From a virus: a stretch of 64,000 bases of DNA. Each line of letters begins with the position of its first letter. The first letter of the stretch is position 1. The translations under genes and the position numbers were made by a program. The notes below the pieces were generated by a model that had not been told where the DNA came from, made no database searches, and saw only the letters and a program-made list of their open reading frames with translations. Shown here piece by piece: positions 9,123 to 42,694 of this stretch. The stretch is taken from positions 19,221 through 83,220 of the IMG/VR virus record IMGVR_UViG_3300023174_000129; one strand, 5' to 3'.

Positions 9123-10103
9123 TTAATCTATTTTTTTCTTCTCCCAAAAAATTGGATATTCTTTTTTTCTTAAAGTAATACTTTCTCCTATAATATTTTC
9201 TATAATTACCGTCTGTTTATTTCTCTTCAAAAGTTTATAATCTAAATAAATATCACCTTCTTTAATTTTAAAAGAATTATTTAATACCTTATCTTTTTCT
9301 TCTTTAAATTTAAAAATATATTTTTTTGGAGTTTTTACTATACCTCTACAAGTTTTGCCAATTAAAGATTCGGAAATATTTAATTCAATAGATGCTTCTT
9401 TTATTGAATTAAATTCTTTTATAAACTCACCATCTATTGAAAATTGTAAAACTTTTTTACTATTAAATTCTGCACTCTTTTTGGACATAGCCGTTTGAAC
9501 AACAGCTGCATTTCTTTTATCCTTTATCTTTTGTATAGTTTCCAAATCGTGTTTTCTACCAAACATAGGATGTTTTAGTCCAGAAACTCTTATTGATTGT
9601 TCCTCTTTAACTTTTTCTGTATGGGGTTTACCAAACATAGGATTGTTTTCTCCTTTATTTATTTCTTTTAATTTTTCTTTTGTTTCTTCGGTATGTGCGT
9701 TATGTAGATTTTGAGATTTTTTAGTTTTTGAAATTTTCAATTTAGTTTCTTTGGAGTGTGGAGAAGTTAATCTTCCATCACCACCATCAGTTAAATTAGT
9801 CAAAGGACCTTTATTCAAATCTCTTCTTCCGATTTTTGAAATTAATTGTTTTTCTATTTCTAGTGCTTCTAAATTTTCTAAATTTTCGAATAATTTAAAT
9901 CTTATAACATTACCACCTTTTTCTTTTATTGACTTTATTTTACTGCTTTTAAAAACACCTTTAGTGCACATAGAGTTTATTATTCTATCATCACTTCCTT
10001 TTCCTATATAAAAAGGTTCATAATCAAATTCTAAATCTTCATAAATAAACTTACCAGATTTAGTATCATCTAAAAATACATAAATATAATATTTCTTTCT
10101 CAT
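9123..10103 (-). CDS. GIY-YIG homing endonuclease with NUMOD modules
   Basis: A 326-residue free-standing homing nuclease. The GIY-YIG domain is N-terminal (YYIYVF ... FEPFYIGKGSDDR, with FYIGKG as the YIG element). Then come NUMOD3-like repeats (ENNPMFGKPHTEKVKEE and LKHPMFGRKHDLETIQK) and a NUMOD1-like module (VLQFSIDGEFIKEFNSIKEA), which bind DNA. It lies immediately after the truncated DNA polymerase gene, the position expected for a nuclease that split that gene. Confidence 0.9.
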   Translation of the reverse strand: MRKKYYIYVFLDDTKSGKFIYEDLEFDYEPFYIGKGSDDRIINSMCTKGVFKSSKIKSIKEKGGNVIRFKLFENLENLEALEIEKQLISKIGRRDLNKGPLTNLTDGGDGRLTSPHSKETKLKISKTKKSQNLHNAHTEETKEKLKEINKGENNPMFGKPHTEKVKEEQSIRVSGLKHPMFGRKHDLETIQKIKDKRNAAVVQTAMSKKSAEFNSKKVLQFSIDGEFIKEFNSIKEASIELNISESLIGKTCRGIVKTPKKYIFKFKEEKDKVLNNSFKIKEGDIYLDYKLLKRNKQTVIIENIIGESITLRKKEYPIFWEKKKID

Positions 10104-18869: not shown

Positions 18870-19434
18870 AGTTGAAAAATATCCTAGCACTTATTACATC
18901 GCAACAATGACAAAAAGCACTTAATGGTGTCATTACTCTTTTATCTTTTCTATAATCTTCGCCTTCACCATGAATATATTTCAATGCTAATTTATGTTCA
19001 TCAGTTAATTTTATATTAAATTTATTAATTAAATTTTCTCTTATGTCATCATCTGAATCAGTTTCATATTCATAAATTTCTTCCTCTATCATACCATTTT
19101 CGTCTATAACACCTGTTTTAACTAAAACTGGTGTATATTTAATTGGTTTCTCAATATCATGTAAAAATAACACCAAAATAGCATCTGATAAACTAAAATC
19201 TAATTTTCCCTTTAATGATAAATATTTAAACATTTTAGAAGAATAATCTAAAATATCTGATATATGTTTATAATAACCACCTTCATATGCCTGATGATTA
19301 GAAACTGAACCAGGAGCATCAGGATATTTTTCTATAAAATAATCTAATAAATTAAGACATTTAAAATTATTATCATCGTCTATATTAAGAAGATGTGAAA
19401 TAATGTTGTTAATTTCTGGTTTAAGAGCAAGCAT
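18868..19434 (-). CDS. HD-domain phosphohydrolase
   Basis: A 188-residue protein with HD-superfamily metal ligands: NHQAYEGGYYKHISDIL supplies early histidines, VLFLHDIEKPIKY the HD pair, ALKYIHGEGEDYRK a later histidine, and FCHCCDVISARIFF a final C/D region. Such enzymes remove phosphates from nucleotides or cyclic nucleotides; the substrate is unknown. It could act in nucleotide salvage with the MazG- and RpiB-like genes nearby. TTAATATATAATT precedes the start. Confidence 0.75.
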   Translation of the reverse strand: MLALKPEINNIISHLLNIDDDNNFKCLNLLDYFIEKYPDAPGSVSNHQAYEGGYYKHISDILDYSSKMFKYLSLKGKLDFSLSDAILVLFLHDIEKPIKYTPVLVKTGVIDENGMIEEEIYEYETDSDDDIRENLINKFNIKLTDEHKLALKYIHGEGEDYRKDKRVMTPLSAFCHCCDVISARIFFN

Positions 19435-27033: not shown

Positions 27034-27063
27034 TAGTGTAAAGTTCTTCTTATCTTTACACTA
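27034..27063. repeat. 10-bp inverted repeat at the transposase start
   Basis: TAGTGTAAAG and CTTTACACTA are perfect complements separated by 10 bases and end at the transposase ATG. GTGTAAAGTT is shared with the terminal repeats, so this may be a transposase-binding autoregulatory site. Confidence 0.5.
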
Positions 27064-28070
27064 TGTTAGAATTAAAGCCATTTAGAAGCATTTTAGATTT
27101 ATTAAGACAATTTCCTGACGAACAAACCTGTATTAATCACCTACAAACATTACGCTGGAACGATAATGTTATTTCTCCATTTGATTCAACCTCCAAAATC
27201 TATAAATGCTCCAATAATAAATATAAGTGTAAAAATACTGGTAAATATTTCAATGTTTTAACTAATACTATTTTTGAAAACACTAAAATACCTTTACAAA
27301 CTTGGTTTCTTGCTATTTACCTTTTCACTACACATAATAAAGGTATTAGTAGCTATACATTAGCAACTGAATTAAATATCACTCAAAAATCAAGTTGGTT
27401 CTTGTTGTCAAGAATTAGATATGCTATGGAACATGATAACTTTCTAACTAATTTTGACGGTTCAATAGAACTTGACGAAACTTATATCGGTGGTAAAAAC
27501 AAAAATAGACACAATGATAAAAAAGTAGAAGGTTCACAAGGTAGAAGCGGTGAAGATAAACAACCTGTTTTTGGAATGTTTAAAGATGAAGTTTCTGAAA
27601 TAGTTTATAGACCAAATAAAAACAATAATGAATTAGCGGTAAAAGAAAAAGTAATTATTAATCCTGCTATTGTAAGAGTAGAAGTAGTTAATAATGTAAA
27701 AAGAGAAACAATTTTACCGATTATTAAAAACAAAGTTGTAGATAATTCAATAGTAGTTACTGATGAATATAGAATATATAATCGTTTAAGTGAAAATTAC
27801 GATCATAAAGTAGTTTATCATAAAATAAGTAATTATGTAACAAATGAAGGTTTCACAACTAATAGATTAGAAGGTTTTTGGAATATATTAAAGAAAGCGT
27901 GGACTACAACTTATATGGGTCGTGTAACAGGCAAACATTTACATAGATATTGTAGAGAAACAGAATATAGATTTAATACAAGACATTTAACTGCTTCCGA
28001 GAAATTCAATTTACTATTAGCCGGAACAGAAAAAAGATTAAGATATGTTGATTTGATAAACAACAAATAA
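27063..28070 (+). CDS. IS1595-family (ISXO2-like) transposase
   Basis: A 335-residue DDE-type transposase. The N-terminus has the short zinc-ribbon-like region CSNNKYKCKNTGKYFNVLTN typical of the family. The ISXO2-like catalytic domain has IELDETYIGGKNKNRH (D138), VVTDEYRIYN (D234) and NRLEGFWNILKKAW (E270 with downstream lysines). C-terminal TEYRFNTRH is also characteristic. Intact and probably functional; it cuts at the terminal inverted repeats of the surrounding element. Confidence 0.92.
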   Translation: MLELKPFRSILDLLRQFPDEQTCINHLQTLRWNDNVISPFDSTSKIYKCSNNKYKCKNTGKYFNVLTNTIFENTKIPLQTWFLAIYLFTTHNKGISSYTLATELNITQKSSWFLLSRIRYAMEHDNFLTNFDGSIELDETYIGGKNKNRHNDKKVEGSQGRSGEDKQPVFGMFKDEVSEIVYRPNKNNNELAVKEKVIINPAIVRVEVVNNVKRETILPIIKNKVVDNSIVVTDEYRIYNRLSENYDHKVVYHKISNYVTNEGFTTNRLEGFWNILKKAWTTTYMGRVTGKHLHRYCRETEYRFNTRHLTASEKFNLLLAGTEKRLRYVDLINNK

Positions 28071-31923: not shown

Positions 31924-33204
31924 ATGGTTATTTTAAATGATATAAACAATCAGTTATTTTTAGATAACATCTTAGATAAAGAATTTATTGTATATGAAGA
32001 TGTTAAAGGAACTTCAATTTATGTTAAATGGGATGGTGAAGATTTTATAATAAAACCTGATTTAAAAGCTGATCCTATAAATTTTATTGATGATTCAATT
32101 GATACTTATTACGGAAAATCATATTATTATTTAAATAGTTTAGATTATCGTATAAAATCGCTTTTAAATAAAAAATGGTGGTTTAAATTTGAATATTTTC
32201 CAACTGATTTAAATACATATAACAGAAAACCTAAACATAATTTAATACTTTCGTCTATTATTAAAAAAGGCAAAGAAGATTATAATATTGAAGAAATTGA
32301 AGAATATTCTAGATTATTTAATGTTGAATCTTTGCCATTTATATTTAAAGGTAAATTATCAGATAGACAAATTGAGGCTATTAAATACTTCTTAAATACT
32401 TCTGAAGAAGATTTAGATTATGTATTTGGTGAAAAATCATTTTCGTTCTTTTTTTATAAATTATTAAATCCACAATTATTTGGTTCTTTTTTAATGGATA
32501 ATGAGTTTAATGTTAATGTGGATAAAATTGTTTTAAGATCTAATGATGAGCAATTAAATTTTGCTATATTAAATCCTTTATATACCAAAATAAGTAAATC
32601 TAATTTAACAACTTATTTAGAGGAATATTGCCTTATTCTTATTAATTTTGTTAATTTTTCACAAAGTATTAATTTACAAGATATAAAATTAAAAGGTGAA
32701 AAAAGAAATGACATTTATACATATTTGATTTGTAGATTATTTAATATGTATATAGCAGAGGTTGGTGATGATATTTTAAAATGGGATATTATTATTCCGG
32801 AGTTTTTTAATAAAGATAAATTTAGAATTAATAAAGAAATTATTTTAAATAAAATTGCCAAAGAACATTTATTAGAACCTAAATTTGAATATATTTTTAA
32901 ATGTATTTATTTTTCTTTTAAATTCAAATTAAAAGAACCATTTGGTTTGATAACTGATAACATGTTAACTATAATTAATAAATTTATAAATGATATAGGA
33001 ATGTGTATTGATGTATTTTTAAATAAAAAATCTGAATTTGAATTACAAAAACGTGGACTTATTAATGCGTCAGATTTTTTTGATATTAAATATGATAGTG
33101 ATTCTATTGGTACTGTTTATCCTGATATTTATGATGAAATAAAAAGAGGTGGCGAAGAAAAGAAAAAAAAGAAAGAACCTATTTCTAAAACTCCATTAAA
33201 GTAA
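31924..33204 (+). CDS. Protein of unknown function with possible degenerate ligase-like start
   Basis: A 426-residue protein. EFIVYEDVKGTSIYVKWDGE (residues ~20-40) resembles motif I of nucleotidyltransferase ligases (ExK/HxDG), and FKFEYFPTDLNTYN and DKIVLRSNDE could be later motifs, but the adenylated lysine is not at its usual position. The C-terminal half is helical, ending in a lysine-rich tail (GGEEKKKKKEP). It may be an inactive ligase relative or something unrelated. TTTAATATATATA precedes the ATG. Confidence 0.6.
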   Translation: MVILNDINNQLFLDNILDKEFIVYEDVKGTSIYVKWDGEDFIIKPDLKADPINFIDDSIDTYYGKSYYYLNSLDYRIKSLLNKKWWFKFEYFPTDLNTYNRKPKHNLILSSIIKKGKEDYNIEEIEEYSRLFNVESLPFIFKGKLSDRQIEAIKYFLNTSEEDLDYVFGEKSFSFFFYKLLNPQLFGSFLMDNEFNVNVDKIVLRSNDEQLNFAILNPLYTKISKSNLTTYLEEYCLILINFVNFSQSINLQDIKLKGEKRNDIYTYLICRLFNMYIAEVGDDILKWDIIIPEFFNKDKFRINKEIILNKIAKEHLLEPKFEYIFKCIYFSFKFKLKEPFGLITDNMLTIINKFINDIGMCIDVFLNKKSEFELQKRGLINASDFFDIKYDSDSIGTVYPDIYDEIKRGGEEKKKKKEPISKTPLK

Positions 33205-33421
33205 TTTATCTTTTCAATATATTTTTCTAAAATAATAATTCTATAAATGGTGGTATTTTACCACCATTTTTTAATATTTTAAATTCAAAAGTTCAATTAT
33301 ATATTTTTTCTTTTAATAATATAAATTTATTGAGAATTTCATATAAAGACAATATTAATAAGGTATTAGAAAAAAAATTAAACTAAAATAAAATTAGATA
33401 TAAAAATTAAAAATAAAAATT
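33205..33421. other. Intergenic region with terminator, no gene
   Basis: Between the unknown gene and the restriction-modification locus. It contains the hairpin AAATGGTGG-TATTTTA-CCACCATTT (33246-33271) followed by a T-run, then AT-rich sequence with AAAATTAAAAATAAAAATT before the methyltransferase ATG. No TTAATATATA box is present, in contrast to the typical phage genes. Confidence 0.6.
33246..33274 (+). terminator. Terminator
   Basis: A stem AAATGGTGG/CCACCATTT followed by TTTTT, 40 bases after the stop at 33204. Confidence 0.75.
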
Positions 33422-34492
33422 ATGAATAAATTTATAAGATATATTGGTTCAAAAGAACCGTTAATTGAGTTTTTACTTGAAAACTTCAATAAGTATGCTG
33501 GAGATTTTAATTCTTTTGGAGATATGTTTGCGGGAACTAATGTAGTGTCAAAATATTTGTTGCCACATGTATCAGACATATCATCATATGATATGTCTTC
33601 ATACTCCGAGATTTTAAATTCTTTTGTTAATCCAAAAATAACAGATGATTTCATATCATATTTATATGAGTTAGATAAATGCCAATTAGTAGAAGGAATT
33701 ATATTTAATGAGTTTTCTGTTAATGGAAAACCAGAAACTATTGATTATAAAAAATTTGAATCGCAGGGCAAAAATTATCGTATGTTTTTTAATGAAAATA
33801 TTGGTAAAAAAATAGATGCCATAAGAGAAAAAATATCATTTGATTTTAATAATAAATTAATTAATGAAGAAATTAAAAATATGTCACTTGCATTATTATT
33901 AAAATTTGCAGATATTAATGCAAATACCACTGGTGTATATGGCGCTTACTTAAAAAAGGAAAATAAAAAGCCAAAAGATTTCATAAACAATGAAATTATA
34001 TCAGAACTTAAAAATATTAAATTTTATGAAAATAAAGTTGTTTCATTTAAAAAAATGAAAATCTCCGATTCTGTTAATGATATATCATACAAAGATATAA
34101 TATATTTTGATCCACCATATACTACCAGAAAATATGAAACTAATTATCATATAATAGATTATATTTCAAATTTGAATTTTTCTATTCAAGATATTAAGTA
34201 TAATACTATTACAGGTCTTCCTTTAAATCAACCTGAAAATCCATTTGGGACAGTTAAAAACACAAGTAAAGCATTCGAAGACATGATTGTAAAAACAATC
34301 GATAAATGTAGGTTTATATTCATAAGTTATAGTACACAAGGACTATTGAATCAATCTGATATTGAAAACATATGTAATAAACATAATTTTACTTTAAATA
34401 CTGAAAAGAAAGAATATAAAAAATATAAATCGCATAATAATGATGTCCAAGGAAATTTGGAAGAATTATTATGGGTAATAAATAAAAAATAA
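33422..34492 (+). CDS. DNA adenine methyltransferase 1 of a type II restriction-modification system
   Basis: A 356-residue D12-class enzyme. MNKFIRYIGSKEPLIEFLLE is the conserved opening, FGDMFAGTNVVSKYLL motif I and IIYFDPPYTTRKYETNYHII the catalytic motif (DPPYxxRxYxxNYH), typical of methyltransferases of type IIS and related systems. It is followed after 3 bases by a second D12 enzyme and then a candidate nuclease. Two methylases suggest an asymmetric target with each strand modified separately. Confidence 0.88.
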   Translation: MNKFIRYIGSKEPLIEFLLENFNKYAGDFNSFGDMFAGTNVVSKYLLPHVSDISSYDMSSYSEILNSFVNPKITDDFISYLYELDKCQLVEGIIFNEFSVNGKPETIDYKKFESQGKNYRMFFNENIGKKIDAIREKISFDFNNKLINEEIKNMSLALLLKFADINANTTGVYGAYLKKENKKPKDFINNEIISELKNIKFYENKVVSFKKMKISDSVNDISYKDIIYFDPPYTTRKYETNYHIIDYISNLNFSIQDIKYNTITGLPLNQPENPFGTVKNTSKAFEDMIVKTIDKCRFIFISYSTQGLLNQSDIENICNKHNFTLNTEKKEYKKYKSHNNDVQGNLEELLWVINKK

Positions 34493-34495
34493 AAT

Positions 34496-35440
34496 ATGAA
34501 TAAACTATTTGATTGGATAGGAGGTAAAAAATGGCTTGCTTCTAAATTAGAAACTACATGTAGAGAATTATTAATTAATAATTCTAATATTGAATATTAT
34601 GTAGAGCCATTTTGCGGAAGCATGGGTTCCGTTATTGCATCTCTTAAAGTTTTCAAGAAATTTGGTATAAAAAAAATAATATTAAATGATATAAATACTA
34701 ATTTAATAAATGTTTATTTAATGGTAAAAAATAAACCTAATGAATTATTTGAATTGATAAAAGAAATTGAGGAAAAACATGAATCTCTAATACCAGATAG
34801 ATGTTTTGGATTAAATAAAACTAAAGATAAGTTAATTCTTAAAGAATTAATGAAGGACGCTAATGATTATTATATAAATATAAGAATTCAGTATAATAAG
34901 TTAAAAAATTCATCTATAGATGATGATATATTGAAATCTTCGGCACAATTTTTATTTTTAATGTATCGGGCTTTTAATGGTGTTTATAGAGAGAATAAAA
35001 AGGGTGAATTTAATACCCCATATGGATGGACAAATAAAAAAATAAATTTAAATAATAAATATGAAAATATCATAAGCTTTCACAATTTATTTAAAGAAAT
35101 GGATATTATATTTTATAATATGAATTTTAATGAATTTTTGGAGAAATGTGTAAAAATACAAAATAAATGTCTATTTTATTTTGATCCACCTTACTTAAAT
35201 GAAGATCTAAAAGAAAATGATTACAATAAAGACGGGTTTGGTTTAAATGAGCAGAAAATATTATTGGATTATGTTGATAAATTTGATAATATAATTTATA
35301 GTAATCATAATTTAGAATTGTTTAAAACATTTTTCAATAAAGAAAAATATTCTATTGAAGTTGTTAAAAGGAAAAACACCATGAGTTCCGATAACTCTAC
35401 AAGAGTTAATGATGCTGAAGAAATTTTTGTTTATTCATAA
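34496..35440 (+). CDS. DNA adenine methyltransferase 2 of a type II restriction-modification system
   Basis: A 314-residue Dam-like D12 enzyme. LFDWIGGKKWLASKLE is the N-terminal AdoMet loop, YVEPFCGSMGSVIAS motif I, LMYRAFNGVYRENKKGEFN the family target region, and LFYFDPPYLNEDLKE the DPPY motif. The C-terminus DNSTRVNDAEEIFVYS lies within a 23-bp perfect inverted repeat that overlaps the stop codon. A decayed copy of a closely related gene is found at 40200-40346. Confidence 0.88.
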   Translation: MNKLFDWIGGKKWLASKLETTCRELLINNSNIEYYVEPFCGSMGSVIASLKVFKKFGIKKIILNDINTNLINVYLMVKNKPNELFELIKEIEEKHESLIPDRCFGLNKTKDKLILKELMKDANDYYINIRIQYNKLKNSSIDDDILKSSAQFLFLMYRAFNGVYRENKKGEFNTPYGWTNKKINLNNKYENIISFHNLFKEMDIIFYNMNFNEFLEKCVKIQNKCLFYFDPPYLNEDLKENDYNKDGFGLNEQKILLDYVDKFDNIIYSNHNLELFKTFFNKEKYSIEVVKRKNTMSSDNSTRVNDAEEIFVYS

Positions 35441-35459
35441 ACAAAAATTTCTTCAGCAT
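35412..35459 (+). terminator. 23-bp perfect inverted repeat at the methylase stop
   Basis: ATGCTGAAGAAATTTTTGTT... pairs perfectly over 23 bp with the sequence to 35459 around a TC loop, followed by TTTAAAA. It ends the methylase gene and lies 23 bases before the nuclease ATG, so it may act as a partial terminator that lowers nuclease expression. Confidence 0.75.
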
Positions 35460-35482
35460 TTAAAAAGAAAAAAAATAAATTT

Positions 35483-36826
35483 TTGTATATGAATTTATAC
35501 TTACAAGGAGAAGAAGCCCCACACCAATTTAATCATGCAAATGTTATAGAGTGGATTTCTAATCTCAAAAAAACAAATATTAACATTACTGATGCTGGTT
35601 TAATATTTAAACCAATAAATAACATTACTTATAAAATTGAAGGAATTACATCTACTTCGTATAATAATTTTTATTATACTTTATATAACAGTAAAAAAGG
35701 CAGTTTAGTTGATGGATTAATATTTGAGAGTGAAAAAATGCCTTCTCCCGAAGAAGATATACCAATAGCTGCTTTCGAAATAACTAAAAATGATGGTTCG
35801 CAGCAGGGAAATATGTATGACCAGAGATGTGCTAAACAAGTTCCAATAATAGAAAAATATGGTAATATTCCGTATTTATTTTTGATAGCAGCAACAAAAT
35901 TTACAATCGTCGAGACCGAAAATAGCTTCAGACAATCTCATAATTGCTCTATCGCCACTATAATTGCTATAGGAGGTGATGTATGTATCAGTAAAAATGA
36001 TAAAATTGGATATACAAAGTATAATCCTTCTTTTGTTTATGATTCTATTGAAAATATAGAAAAACAAGAAAATAAAAAGAAAAAAAACGGTGGAGTTCCT
36101 TCAAGAGTCAATTTAAAAGATAATAAAGTTTATATACAAGCAAATTTATATAAATTTAATAAAAAAACACAAAAAGAAGAATCACATGATCCAAATATAG
36201 GTTATATATCTGGTAGAGCTTTTCTGATAAGAAAATATGATGATAATATTGAGATATGTATAGTTGAGCATAAAAAAAATTTTTACTACTTTCAAAATAA
36301 AGATAACAAATTCACAAATATTCTCAAATTAGTTGGTGTTACTATTTTATTTGAAAATGGTATAAAATTAAAGATAGAAAGGGAAAATAAATTCAATAAA
36401 ATATATTGGAATTACGCTGAAGGTATAGAAAAAATAGCAACTATTCGTTTAGAACAAATGATAAAAGACAATAAGGATTATGAAGTATTATTTTCTAATC
36501 ACGGAGGCTGTGAAAAATCAGACACATTTATTAATGGAATATCAAGCCAAACGAAACGAACTTCGGGATTGCCTGATTTAGTTTTCTATCAAAAATTACA
36601 AAATAAATTATATGTTATTGAAGGAGAAAAAAGCGAAAATTATAAAAAAGGCATTTTACAAATGAATAAAAAAGAATATGATGAATTTATAGATAGAGAA
36701 TTTTTGACTAAATTGCCACCTAATGTAAAAATTATTAAAAAAATATGCACATATGGTTCATTTAATAATGAAAAAGATGTAATATACAATATTACAAAAG
36801 AAGGCGTAATTAATTCTTTTTTATAG
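35483..36826 (+). CDS. Probable type II restriction endonuclease (PD-(D/E)xK)
   Basis: A 447-residue protein with no exact family match by eye. RTSGLPDLVFYQKLQNKLY followed by VIEGEKSEN fits PD-x(n)-ExEK, the nuclease core, near residues 360-385. An additional conserved-looking segment is IPIAAFEITKNDGSQQGNMY. Position after two DNA methyltransferases on the same strand is the main reason for calling it the cognate nuclease. Alternative: another methylase-associated protein. Start is MNLYLQ (35489) or MYMNLYLQ (35483). Confidence 0.7.
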   Translation: MYMNLYLQGEEAPHQFNHANVIEWISNLKKTNINITDAGLIFKPINNITYKIEGITSTSYNNFYYTLYNSKKGSLVDGLIFESEKMPSPEEDIPIAAFEITKNDGSQQGNMYDQRCAKQVPIIEKYGNIPYLFLIAATKFTIVETENSFRQSHNCSIATIIAIGGDVCISKNDKIGYTKYNPSFVYDSIENIEKQENKKKKNGGVPSRVNLKDNKVYIQANLYKFNKKTQKEESHDPNIGYISGRAFLIRKYDDNIEICIVEHKKNFYYFQNKDNKFTNILKLVGVTILFENGIKLKIERENKFNKIYWNYAEGIEKIATIRLEQMIKDNKDYEVLFSNHGGCEKSDTFINGISSQTKRTSGLPDLVFYQKLQNKLYVIEGEKSENYKKGILQMNKKEYDEFIDREFLTKLPPNVKIIKKICTYGSFNNEKDVIYNITKEGVINSFL

Positions 36827-36890: not shown

Positions 36891-37358
36891 ATGAGTAAAT
36901 TTAATAAAACTAATTTTGTAATTGAGATGGCTTTAAATTGGGTTGATGGTCCAACGCTTATAAATGAATTATACAATAATCATAAACATGAAGTCGAAAG
37001 AAAAAAAGATTCATATAAAATGAAAAATGTTACAAAAACAGATACAGAAATAAAACATCAATTAAGTGCGGAATTAACTGCCGTTTTTTCAAATAAAAAA
37101 GATTTTTTTGATTATGACGAAACCCAGAACTATAAAAGATGGAAATTAAATCAAAAAGGTTTAAATTACTATAATCAAAATATAAAACCTAAAATTATAG
37201 CACAACACCTGCAACAGCAAAGTATAACTAAAGTGGTAAATCCACTATTAAATATTTTGAATAGTAATCAGTTGGTAGATTGTATAAATAAAAATTTATC
37301 TAAATTAGACAAAATACAAATAGAAAAATTAAGGGAAATAGTTTCTGAATTCTATTAA
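36891..37358 (+). CDS. Protein of unknown function after the restriction gene
   Basis: A 155-residue, basic, helical protein starting MSKFNKTNFVIEMALNWVDG. KRWKLNQKGLNYYNQNIKPK could be a DNA-binding or wing-like segment. No known domain. Position at the end of the restriction-modification locus, before a terminator, suggests an accessory part, but this is only context. Confidence 0.55.
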   Translation: MSKFNKTNFVIEMALNWVDGPTLINELYNNHKHEVERKKDSYKMKNVTKTDTEIKHQLSAELTAVFSNKKDFFDYDETQNYKRWKLNQKGLNYYNQNIKPKIIAQHLQQQSITKVVNPLLNILNSNQLVDCINKNLSKLDKIQIEKLREIVSEFY

Positions 37359-37564: not shown

Positions 37565-38704
37565 ATGCACAAAATAAACAATTTAGGTCAAGTTTTTACT
37601 CCAGAACATATTGTATCAAAAATGATTGGTTTGATTCAAAATGACAATTCTATTTTAGAACCATCGTGTGGAGATGGTATATTTCTTAAATATTTAACAA
37701 ATAAGAATATAACTGCAATTGAATTTGATGCACAACATTGCCCTATTAATGCATTAAACATAGATTTTTTTGATTATGATATTAATAATAAATTTGATAC
37801 TATAATTGGCAATCCACCTTATATAGCTGGTAAAAATATAATTAATTCAACATTATCTAAAATTAATAGTGATTTAATCACTCATGGCAAATCTAATTTA
37901 TATCTTTATTTTATAGAAAAATGCATTAATCATTTGACAGAAAATGGTGAATTAATATTTATTACACCAAGGGAGTTTATTAAAACTACATCTTCAATAA
38001 AATTAAATAATTATATCTATGAAAATGGAACAATAACAGATTGGTATGAGTATGGCGATGAAATTGTATTTGAAGGATATTCTCCATCAGTTGTTATTTG
38101 GAGATTTCAAAAGAATAATTTTAGTCGAAAAACTAATACTAATTTAGGTGAAAAGATTTTCACAAATTCAAATGGGCAATTACTATTTTTAGATAGTAAA
38201 ATAACTGGAACTAAATTAGGTAGTTTATTTGCTATAAAAGTTGGAGCTGTTAGTGGTTCGGATAAATTATTTGAGAGTAATGATGGAAATATGGAGTTTG
38301 TTTGTTCTTATACAAATAAGACTGGAAATTTGAAAAAAATGTTTTATAACATTAAAAATGATTATATTTTTTCAATAAAAGACGAATTAATGAAACGGCG
38401 AATAAAAATTTTTACCGAAGATAATTGGTGGACTTGGGGAAGAGATTTTTACAAATCAGATAGAAAAAGAATATATGTTAATGCTAAAACAAGAAATGAT
38501 AAACCGTTTTTTATACATGATTGTAAAAATTATGATGGTTCTATATTAGCATTAATACCATTGACAGATGAAATTGAAAATAATATAGAATTTTATTTAG
38601 AAAAATTAAATTCTTGTGATTGGGAAACTTTAGGATTTAAAGTTGGTGGTAGATATATTTTTAATCAAAAAAGTTTGGAAAATATAATTTTAGATTTAAT
38701 ATAA
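37565..38704 (+). CDS. Adenine-specific DNA methyltransferase (TaqI/HsdM-like)
   Basis: A 379-residue N6-adenine methyltransferase. NNLGQVFTPEHIVSKMI opens the domain, SILEPSCGDGIFLKYL is motif I and TIIGNPPYIAGKN motif IV with NPPY; GELIFITPREFIKTTSS is a conserved downstream segment. The C-terminal half should recognise DNA. No nuclease is adjacent. It overlaps the convergent methyltransferase gene by 9 bases. Confidence 0.9.
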   Translation: MHKINNLGQVFTPEHIVSKMIGLIQNDNSILEPSCGDGIFLKYLTNKNITAIEFDAQHCPINALNIDFFDYDINNKFDTIIGNPPYIAGKNIINSTLSKINSDLITHGKSNLYLYFIEKCINHLTENGELIFITPREFIKTTSSIKLNNYIYENGTITDWYEYGDEIVFEGYSPSVVIWRFQKNNFSRKTNTNLGEKIFTNSNGQLLFLDSKITGTKLGSLFAIKVGAVSGSDKLFESNDGNMEFVCSYTNKTGNLKKMFYNIKNDYIFSIKDELMKRRIKIFTEDNWWTWGRDFYKSDRKRIYVNAKTRNDKPFFIHDCKNYDGSILALIPLTDEIENNIEFYLEKLNSCDWETLGFKVGGRYIFNQKSLENIILDLI

Positions 38705-40123
38705 ATAATCTTTCAAATTTTTACTTGTTATCGTTAAAAATACATCATTAGAATCCTTTTTATCAGTTAAAGTTTTATTATTTAATTCTAAATAATTTAT
38801 AAATTCTTTTGATTTTATAACTTCTATAAATTCATCAAATTTATCTTCTTTTACGTCAACTAAAATACCAGATAAATTCAATATATCTTCATTTATATCT
38901 ATAAAATATATACCTTTTGATTTTAAGAAAGTTAATGGTAATAAAATTCTTTTACCATTAACTTCTTTTAATAAACCCTGTTTTCTACCATAAGCATACC
39001 ATTCATTATATTTATCAGCTTTACCTGCATCTCTTTTTAATAGTTCTTCTTTTATTGATAAAAAATAATTATAAGTATTTGGATAATTTAATTTTAATCT
39101 TTCTTGATTTATTATTTCTGAATTCTCATAAGGATATATAATCCAACTATAATCATCAGATGATTTAGATTTTGTAGCTTTAATAACTTTTTTACATATC
39201 TCTTTTTCTATTTTAAAACCATTTTTATAACAAAATTTTTCATCATAAGAATCAATTTTATAAAGATTGTCTTTTAATGTGGCTATACCAACGCTACAAT
39301 AATTTATTAAATCATATAATTTATTTGTGCCTATATTTAATTCTTCAAATATCCATTTATCATCAGATAAATATGTTTTATCTTTTGTAATATTATTATA
39401 TTCTAAATTATCTGTAATATTACCACAAGTTAAAATGCAAGTATAAGTTGATATTGTTTCCCATACTTTTTTTAAACCAAAATCATATAACCAATTAATT
39501 CTTGGTTTTAAAAGATGTCTTAAAAATTTACCTGATTTAGATTTTATAAAAGAATTTGGAATAATAAATCCTATTTGTTGTGCTGATTTTAATGCCTTTT
39601 CAATAAAAGCAAAATATAAATCTACATTACCTAATTTAACAGAATCTAATTCTAATTTTAATAAATTTAAATAATTTTTATCTAAATTTTGTATTCTTAC
39701 ATAAGGAGGATTTCCAAAAATTATATCATATTGATTGTTCTGTAAAAGAAAATCACCACAAATTATATTTTTTGGATCAATAGTTATAGAATATTCATCA
39801 AAGTAAATATCTAATAATATTCTAAATTCGGCAATAAAAGTTTCGTTTATATCATAACACCATAAATTATTTTCAACAAATAAAGCAAGTGATTCTGGTG
39901 TTTCTCCATTTTTTCTAAAATATTCTAATAAACAAAATATAAAAATACCTTTACCAACACTTGGTTCGCATATTTTTTGATTGATTTTTGGCTGTAATCT
40001 ATTAATAATTTTGTCGCATATTTCTTTATTTGTAAAAACAACGCCTTCTTTTTTTATTAGATCCTTATTTTTATCATCGAAATAACAACTTCTATTTAAT
40101 ATATCTTGTATCATGTAATACAA
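38696..40123 (-). CDS. Adenine-specific DNA methyltransferase (Eco57I-like)
   Basis: A 475-residue N6-adenine methyltransferase. KKEGVVFTNKEICDKIINRL, KICEPSVGKGIFIFCLL (motif I), ICGDFLLQNNQYDIIFGNPP with catalytic NPPYVRIQ, and IGFIIPNSFIKSKSGKFLR are the core. Start MYYMIQDILN could be at the first or fourth codon. The long C-terminal domain has no nuclease motif I can see, so a pure modification enzyme is most likely. Convergent with the gene at 37565. Confidence 0.88.
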   Translation of the reverse strand: MYYMIQDILNRSCYFDDKNKDLIKKEGVVFTNKEICDKIINRLQPKINQKICEPSVGKGIFIFCLLEYFRKNGETPESLALFVENNLWCYDINETFIAEFRILLDIYFDEYSITIDPKNIICGDFLLQNNQYDIIFGNPPYVRIQNLDKNYLNLLKLELDSVKLGNVDLYFAFIEKALKSAQQIGFIIPNSFIKSKSGKFLRHLLKPRINWLYDFGLKKVWETISTYTCILTCGNITDNLEYNNITKDKTYLSDDKWIFEELNIGTNKLYDLINYCSVGIATLKDNLYKIDSYDEKFCYKNGFKIEKEICKKVIKATKSKSSDDYSWIIYPYENSEIINQERLKLNYPNTYNYFLSIKEELLKRDAGKADKYNEWYAYGRKQGLLKEVNGKRILLPLTFLKSKGIYFIDINEDILNLSGILVDVKEDKFDEFIEVIKSKEFINYLELNNKTLTDKKDSNDVFLTITSKNLKDYLY

Positions 40124-40199: not shown

Positions 40200-40346
40200 T
40201 CACTGTAGATAAAAAACTTTTTGATTAGATAAACGGTAAAAATGGCTATACTCTAAATTAAATAATAAGTTAAAATAATATTAGATAATAAGAATAATTC
40301 AAGAGGTGAGGATGCGGCAGAAATTTTAGTTTCATCAATCGTTTAA
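40200..40346 (+). pseudogene. Internally deleted remnant of a D12 DNA adenine methylase
   Basis: The first part, AAACTTTTTGATTAGATA...GGTAAAAATGGCT...CTAAATTA, matches the start of the methylase at 34496 (AAACTATTTGATTGGATA, GGTAAAAAATGGCT, CTAAATTA) with stops. The last part, AATAATTCAAGAGG...GATGCGGCAGAAATTTTAG, matches its end (DxxEDAAEILVSS versus VNDAEEIFVYS). About 85% of the gene is missing between them. A decayed paralogue, not a deletion of the intact gene. Confidence 0.72.
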
Positions 40347-41485: not shown

Positions 41486-42694
41486 ATGTTGAAAGATTCT
41501 ATAAAATCTAAATTAGAAACAAAAAAGTATTCGCTACAATTTCTACCAGAATCAATAAAAGATATAACAACTGAAAAATCGGTTTTTTATAATGGTAAAA
41601 AACTTAAACCATCATTTATAATCGATATCATACATAATTTACTTTTAAGATATTATTTTAGAAAAGAAAATGCATTTCCACTTTCGTCAACTATTCTCAA
41701 AGAAAAATATGGTTATTTATATAACTATTATATGGATTATTTAGTTAGTAAAAATATATTACATATAATAAAAGAATATAAAATCGGTAAAAATACACGA
41801 ACATATAAATTTGATGATTCTATTTTAGATGAAACCATTTTAAGATATAAAAATGATAACCAATCTTTATTAAAAAAATATAAAAAAGCTGTTAGTGCTA
41901 TTGATAATAATGATATTTTAAAAAATTCTATTTATCCAGAGATAAAACAAAAATTAGTATCTGATTTATTTACCACTTCAATTGAATTTGATAAAGCATT
42001 ATATTATTTAAATAATACAATTCAAGATAAAGATTCTTACAATAAGAATAAATATTCCGTAGAATCTATACATGACCGACATATATTTTACCATTTTGAT
42101 TGTTATGGAAGATTGCATACTAATTTCACTATTTTAAAATCATTTATAAGAAAAAATTGTCTTTTAATTAAAAATAAACCAACTTGTGAAATAGATATTT
42201 CTAATTCACAACCACTTTTTTTAACTAAAATAATACATGAAGAAGGTATAGGATTATCAAATACACATGAGTTTAAAGTTTTTAGTTATCTTGTAATACA
42301 TGGTAAGTTTTATCAATTTTTAATGGATAATTCAAATATCAAAGATAAAAAAACATGTAAAGAATTAGTTTATGTAACATTATTTGGTAGAAATGGAAAA
42401 TCTATTAACAATCCATTTGCTAAACTTTTTCCAAAAATATATAATTTTCTAATCGATTATAAAAAAACATATGAAGATTACCGTATAGTTTCACATAAAT
42501 TACAAAATTTAGAATCACAATTTATATTTAATAAAGTAATAAAAACTTTGTCAATAATTAATCCTGATATAAATGTAATAACCATACATGATAGTATTAT
42601 AGTTCAGGAACAGCATAAGCAACAAGTGCAATCTTTAATGAATTCTATGTTATTAAATGAGTTTGATTTTATAGATAGGGAATATACATTCTAG
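41486..42694 (+). CDS. Family A polymerase palm-like protein
   Basis: A 402-residue protein with the three polymerase A palm motifs in order: motif A CEIDISNSQPLFLTK (D237), motif B KTCKELVYVTLFGRNGK (K289, Y296, G301), motif C INVITIHDSIIVQE (H368, D369). Upstream, YGRLHTNFT is also conserved in this group. It has no 3'-5' exonuclease and no clear thumb. It may be a polymerase, primer maker or terminal transferase of a poorly described Bacteroidota/phage family. The genome also has a split family B polymerase, so the roles must differ. Confidence 0.72.
   Translation: MLKDSIKSKLETKKYSLQFLPESIKDITTEKSVFYNGKKLKPSFIIDIIHNLLLRYYFRKENAFPLSSTILKEKYGYLYNYYMDYLVSKNILHIIKEYKIGKNTRTYKFDDSILDETILRYKNDNQSLLKKYKKAVSAIDNNDILKNSIYPEIKQKLVSDLFTTSIEFDKALYYLNNTIQDKDSYNKNKYSVESIHDRHIFYHFDCYGRLHTNFTILKSFIRKNCLLIKNKPTCEIDISNSQPLFLTKIIHEEGIGLSNTHEFKVFSYLVIHGKFYQFLMDNSNIKDKKTCKELVYVTLFGRNGKSINNPFAKLFPKIYNFLIDYKKTYEDYRIVSHKLQNLESQFIFNKVIKTLSIINPDINVITIHDSIIVQEQHKQQVQSLMNSMLLNEFDFIDREYTF

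Follow-up and report, generated by a model that had tools for sequence, protein, structure and literature searches.

A candidate restriction-modification cassette with a BsmI-like nuclease and a phage-lineage Dam methylase in an exchange slot of a Mahaphage-like virus

The window analyzed here is a stretch of 64 kb (positions 19,221 to 83,220) of the 83,220-base IMG/VR record IMGVR_UViG_3300023174_000129, from a virus whose genome is probably larger than 600 kb. It contains a putative restriction-modification (RM) cassette of three intact open reading frames (ORFs) on the plus strand, all within 3.4 kb: methyltransferase (MTase) A at 33422..34492, MTase B at 34496..35440, starting 3 bp past the end of A, and nuclease R at 35489..36826, or from the TTG at 35483. 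The ATG at 35489 is the more likely start of R, because homologues begin with MNNLW and R, read from this codon, begins with MNLYL. An earlier note, made from the letters alone, had described two D12 methylases followed by a protein with a PD...ExEK core; the ORFs, the MethyltransfD12 matches of both methylases and the motif at residues 364-383 of R bear this out.

MTase A is a D12 adenine methylase with FAGTN and DPPY motifs (PF02086, MethyltransfD12, E 3.8e-18). It is matched by two PADLOC profiles, PDLC03257 with E 1.9e-54 and positions 1-339 of PDLC03287 with E 1.9e-35, and is at most 31% identical to the members of family A, the constant partner of the nuclease family. MTase B is a D12 methylase of the Dam type (MethyltransfD12, E 6e-28); with 127.9 bits against TIGR00571 (dam), above the curated cut-off of 114.85 bits, it belongs to the Dam family by profile. 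PDLC03287 (646 positions) represents fused pairs of D12 methylases, the first half corresponding to family A and MTase A of the window and the second half to family B, the usual second partner of the nuclease. MTase B, in contrast, has its best match in another Dam profile and is not among the PDLC03287 matches at E 0.1.

R is a member of the PADLOC family REase_II (PDLC03445, E 8.8e-18; residues 85-441 on profile positions 115-460 of 465), and its relatives by tblastn are 25-27% identical over 85-96% of the length. Searches of R against Pfam, PHROG, NCBIfam and PDB sequences gave nothing useful. Single-sequence scans of viral and genome contigs with R returned no relative and an alignment-based search was needed; the alignment, seeded by plasmid and phage homologues, led to 139 relatives in genomes of bacteria and archaea, of which 80 were kept, and to five in IMG/VR, a sample gathered with conserved peptide patterns, which favors conserved members. 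The string that the earlier note had seen is present in R as P364 D365 ... E380 G381 E382 K383 (site 2). A second and equally conserved site was overlooked there, namely D77 ... E99-x-T101-K102 (site 1). Across 86 R sequences the invariant or near-invariant residues are S74, D77, E99, T101, K102, N110, Q114, R115 and K118 at site 1, and N339, H340, G342, P364, D365, E380, G381 and G390 at site 2; fully invariant are D77, E99, T101 and K102 in the first and P364, D365, E380 and G381 in the second. The AlphaFold (AF2) model of R, built from 57 sequences, has a predicted local distance difference test score (pLDDT) of 84 and a predicted template modeling score (pTM) of 0.86. Its best match among solved structures is BsmI (9f38; Foldseek E 1e-10; Z 13.1, 391 residues aligned, root-mean-square deviation 4.7), spanning residues 2-447; the next unrelated structure follows at Z 6.8. 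Taken separately, the first half matches SfsA (Z 6.8) and XPF (Z 6.5), and the second half SdaI (Z 6.6) and McrBC (Z 6.1). The predicted fold is a PD-(D/E)xK fold, and the departure from it that the earlier note had named as fatal to its claim did not appear. The R model also matches BFVD entry A0A5J6VIV0, an uncharacterized protein of a Megaviridae environmental sample (TM 0.79, E 7e-25, 20% identity), so that either a giant eukaryotic virus has an enzyme of the R type or the contig was misassigned.

BsmI (PDB 9f38, 9ez5, 9ez7, 9ezd) resembles R in having two different PD-(D/E)xK halves in one chain and in the same order; the two are only ~12% identical, R has 447 residues against 676 in BsmI, and BsmI is not found by sequence profile. 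The titles of the BsmI entries (wild type, nicking-top and bottom-nicking mutants) indicate that each strand has an active site of its own. Enzymes of type IIT, Mva1269I among them, have two different catalytic sites, recognize an asymmetric target and cut inside or very near it (PMC4081073); R is likened to Mva1269I through this description, not by sequence comparison. Two different catalytic halves in a single chain are present in R, as seen in the sites conserved among 86 homologues and in the end-to-end match to BsmI, and two separate adenine methylases are consistent with an asymmetric recognition sequence (PMC4081073). From predicted fold and motifs, R would act as a two-site enzyme of type IIT.

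The same nuclease and MTase A families occur as three-gene modules elsewhere. MTase A adjoins R in 76 of 85 homologous loci, and most of the others are cut by contig ends. A stands with a Dam-type B in 59 loci (fused in one) and with another DPPY methylase, separate or fused, in about 15. Because of these roughly 15 loci, the second methylase is regarded as replaceable, with A and R as the constant parts and replacement as normal for the module. The order is B-A-R on a Bartonella plasmid and on Psychrobacter plasmids, where R is duplicated or a methylase is fused in the latter, and Streptococcus phage Javan105 carries R with A and B nearby. The PDLC03445 modules on these replicons and in the 139 bacterial and archaeal loci differ from the window in being only 25-30% identical to it and in having family B, not a phage Dam, as second methylase. 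The full module, with family B as is usual, is also found on four IMG/VR contigs (L094, L095, L096, L098), and the window is thus not the only phage-borne case. Agrobacterium jumbo phage Atu_ph07 has a related MTase A; the gene that follows it was rejected as a restriction enzyme, having no such PADLOC match. In the window a nuclease gene lies beside its own methylases, the arrangement of a type II RM system. The earlier claim of a complete type II system thus stands as far as the cassette, with a PDLC03445 member of predicted PD-(D/E)xK fold and two methylases, looks complete, and is to be amended in that B is not the usual partner.

The virus is, by its genes, a fragment of a huge Mahaphage-like phage, because its major capsid protein is akin to those of 635-735-kb phages: 64% identical to that of LR756502 (642 kb), 63% to that of LR745206 (635 kb), and 47-48% to those of LR756501 and LR756504 (636 and 735 kb). 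Structural genes near the capsid gene are also conserved in relatives. The sizes of these four phages are those of the four largest genomes of PMC7162821, which are assigned there to the Mahaphage clade and predicted to infect Bacteroidetes; close kinship of the window to the 634-735-kb phages is based here on capsid identity and neighboring structural genes.

The cassette lies in a slot between two conserved genes on the plus strand, X (31924..33204; 49-92% identical to its homologues in 29 IMG/VR relatives and 53% to that of LR756502) and Y (41486..42694; homologues 40-95% identical, beside X in relatives). X and Y are neighbors with a gap below 0.5 kb in 22 of the 29 relatives holding both, some of which are near-duplicate records, and in LR756502. 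Inserts of 1.8-10 kb separate X from Y in the relatives G001, G002, G003, G006, G017, G041 and G043 and in the window, where the insert measures 8.3 kb. In G003, gene X (L199:236-1521) is interrupted by stops. The segment unique to the window, approximately 33423-36808, is exactly A-B-R: the sister phage G003 is homologous as far as 33422, and homology to another sister, G002, sets in again at 36809. The flanks of the cassette are 83-93% identical to G003 and G002 and the surroundings 90-93% to G003; within the unique segment only B has similar DNA elsewhere, in the resident Dam genes of sister phages (66-71%). R was not found in five complete or near-complete huge phages, nor A and R in the close relatives tested. 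The recent import proposed in the earlier note is supported by this comparison with sister phages.

Other RM genes occupy the same slot in other sisters. That of G003 has an N6_N4 methylase and a match to the MamI restriction endonuclease (PF09567; 25.3 against the Pfam cut-off of 25). That of G002 has a methylase (PDLC03255) beside a 177-residue protein, whose IMG/VR relatives are mostly beside or fused to a similar methylase; the model of this protein (pLDDT 85, pTM 0.81) is that of a PD-(D/E)xK nuclease, with matches to Eco15I (Z 10.5), DpnI (Z 9.2) and NhoI (Z 9.0). Since G003, G002 and the window hold RM pairs, and G006, G001 and G017 lone methylases, the slot is, by its predicted gene content, a hot spot both of methylases and of RM pairs. 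To the right of the cassette in the window, the 155-residue product of 36891..37358 (+; 83% identical in G002, 48% in G001) was rejected as a partner of the nuclease, having no family match and being common to sister phages without A and R. It is followed by an orphan-looking adenine methylase of the Eco57I/TaqI type at 37565..38704 (+; PF07669, E 8.8e-21; PDLC03282, E 1.7e-123; 92% identical in G003) and by a second methylase of the Eco57I type at 38696..40123 (-; PF07669, E 5.1e-20; 94% identical in G003, 68% in G002). To the left, the segment 33304..33422 (+) recurs upstream of the cassette of G003 (83% DNA identity to L199:2700-2820). Within it, at approximately 33321-33383, lies the C-terminal remnant of a putative endonuclease that is whole in the G017 slot; the evidence is a 21-residue stretch matching a G002 fragment (blastx E 0.001) and a match between the protein of G017 and the corresponding segment in G003 (E 5e-6). 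The G017 and G043 slots contain this putative zinc-finger endonuclease (301 residues, with zinc-finger-like repeats), and C-terminal fragments of the G017-type protein remain in G002 and G003. Conversion of the homing-endonuclease type is a plausible but weakly supported route for the cassette. The G041 slot encodes a protein resembling the RuBisCO large chain (L207:589-1818; PF00016, E 8e-32).

The lone Dam gene of the sister phages sits between the homologues of 38696 and 40393. It is intact in G002 and G001; in G003 it is frameshifted, with an internal duplication. In the window this position retains a deletion remnant at 40214..40345 (+), whose DNA is 80% and 89% identical to either end of the Dam gene of G003 (L199:9783-10770), with ~840 bp missing in between. 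MTase B is 58-60% identical to the intact resident Dams of G001 and G002. A first tree of Dam sequences had a very long branch, which was broken by adding these two; in the maximum-likelihood tree B groups with the sister-phage Dams (99/99) and family B forms a separate clade (100/99), on which ground B was rejected as a member of the nuclease's usual partner family. By tree and remnant, the cassette Dam is of the phage lineage and the window's resident Dam is gone from its ancestral position. B may either have been recruited into an incoming pair of A and R or belong to an older phage hybrid exchanged whole. The nearest relatives of B, the orphan Dams of huge phages (G001, G002 and, more distantly, Lak phages), stand alone, whereas B lies inside an RM operon. 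As a separate observation, GATC occurs 74 times in the window against 166 by Markov expectation (45%), despite the Dam-type genes. The same scarcity is seen in relatives, some of which lack the cassette.

Gene X is followed by an intrinsic terminator at 33245..33269 (+; 11-pair stem and T run; -13.5 kcal/mol). A long hairpin at 35412..35459, an inverted repeat, covers the stop of B and the space between B and R (fold of 35400-35490, -29.6 kcal/mol). It is possibly an attenuator that would lower R relative to A and B. A box, TTAATATATA, lies upstream of genes in 20 of 87 regions against 1.45 expected and is strongest near the capsid and structural genes; it probably serves this group of phages as late promoter.

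On this evidence it is probable, in our judgment, that A, B and R form an RM cassette in a Mahaphage-type exchange slot. R would be a monomeric, BsmI-like endonuclease of type IIT with an asymmetric site, each strand being cut by a different PD-(D/E)xK half. MTase A would methylate adenine on one strand of this site, and the phage-lineage Dam, in place of the usual second methylase, would cover the other, protecting the DNA of the phage. In the infected cell R would then cleave DNA that lacks the modification, most probably that of competing phages or plasmids and possibly that of the host. Several points weigh against this reading. Of the 80 columns with at least 97% conservation, R is changed in 35, while the next most divergent member is changed in 15 and the median is 0. 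Residue 100 is isoleucine (E100I), where glutamate, two residues before K102, is 98% conserved, and site 2 reads E-G-E-K where 92% of sequences have E-G-K (K382E). No close homologue of A or R usable for measuring selection was found, the box TTAATATATA is missing before A, B and R, and protection of the R site by B is something we infer. The missing box had been noted correctly, and it was taken in the earlier note as a sign of recent import; as proof of import it was rejected, since most other genes of the window lack it as well and only about a dozen have a strong one.

The changes in R make it possible that R is a nickase or a dead enzyme. Specifically, it could be a strand-specific nickase or a decaying enzyme, with site 1 (E100I) or both sites impaired, in a cassette kept for its methylases as an anti-restriction island; the two further methylases in the slot would suit this reading, as would the decay of resident Dams in G003 and the window. 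We hold it to be unlikely: the R ORF is intact and retains every other invariant residue of the two sites, namely D77, E99, T101, K102, N110, Q114, R115, K118, N339, H340, P364, D365 and E380. The family member L077 lacks E100 as well (valine stands there in one relative), and E382 occurs in six intact relatives. R is also not alone in its divergence, since MTase A is changed at 26 of 65 conserved columns, which gives no clear sign of special decay of R. It is doubtful, too, that B is a bystander between A and R, with A alone protecting the site. The phage Dam lineage does exist without A and R in sister phages; the position of B inside the cassette, 3 bp after A and before R, the near-constant presence of a second methylase in family loci, and the loss of the resident Dam where the cassette Dam exists all speak against a bystander.

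For the target of R, competing DNA is preferred to that of the host. Chlorovirus restriction enzymes do act on host DNA (as summarized in PMC7253447), and R could likewise serve takeover or nucleotide recycling; this seems rather unlikely here, as matching methylation would make the host immune and cassette exchange among the sisters resembles turnover driven by competition. Least probable, and in our view very unlikely, is a selfish passenger that entered by gene conversion of the homing-endonuclease type and persists by addiction, without benefit to the phage. The putative zinc-finger endonuclease of the G017 and G043 slots and its C-terminal remnants in the window, G003 and G002 would fit such an entry. 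Addiction needs a persistent replicon, a condition that a virulent phage would hardly provide, and the occurrence of three different RM pairs in a single slot points to selection for the possession of such a pair.

The remark of the earlier note that phages mostly carry methylases alone agrees with a survey of 831 phage genomes, in which 9 complete RM systems stood against 143 lone methylases (PMC4176335). Complete RM systems in phages are thus rare but known; what is new here is the hybrid composition and the swapping of cassettes. The RM systems of chloroviruses and Marseilleviridae (PMC7253447) are likewise virus-encoded pairs of methylase and nuclease for which exclusion of other viruses was proposed, and giant viruses can use complete systems against their viral competitors (PMC7253447). 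They belong to eukaryotic viruses, and the marseillevirus system, for GATC and with a single methylase, is unlike that of the window.

Elsewhere in the window, many otherwise unrelated proteins share a similar short N-terminal stretch (e.g. MKYLKLFEEY, MKYIKYFENY; ORF starts 4331, 6882, 8668, 14685, 28950, 43294 and 61077). These starts recall the capsid-targeting leaders of T4 internal proteins, and we presume that such proteins could be packed in the head and injected. One protein of this type (61077-61655, -) has a weak match, below cut-off, to an ADP-ribosyltransferase (PF18760, E 0.025). An IS1595-type transposase is encoded at 27063-28070 (+; PF12762, E 3.9e-32), inside a huge phage, and proteins resembling GIY-YIG / NUMOD homing endonucleases at 9123-10103 and 61659-62828.

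That three sister phages have three unrelated RM pairs in one and the same slot suggests that such systems are kept and traded by huge phages, probably for use against one another. More tentatively, and with less confidence than the cassette itself, we propose that a dedicated slot swaps whole RM systems between sisters, and that in the window the phage's own Dam was enlisted to protect the second strand for an imported single-chain enzyme of type IIT, giving a restriction system of mixed phage and bacterial origin for warfare between phages. A hybrid of this kind, with a phage Dam, would offer a route for the safe adoption of a restriction enzyme, part of the antidote being already owned.

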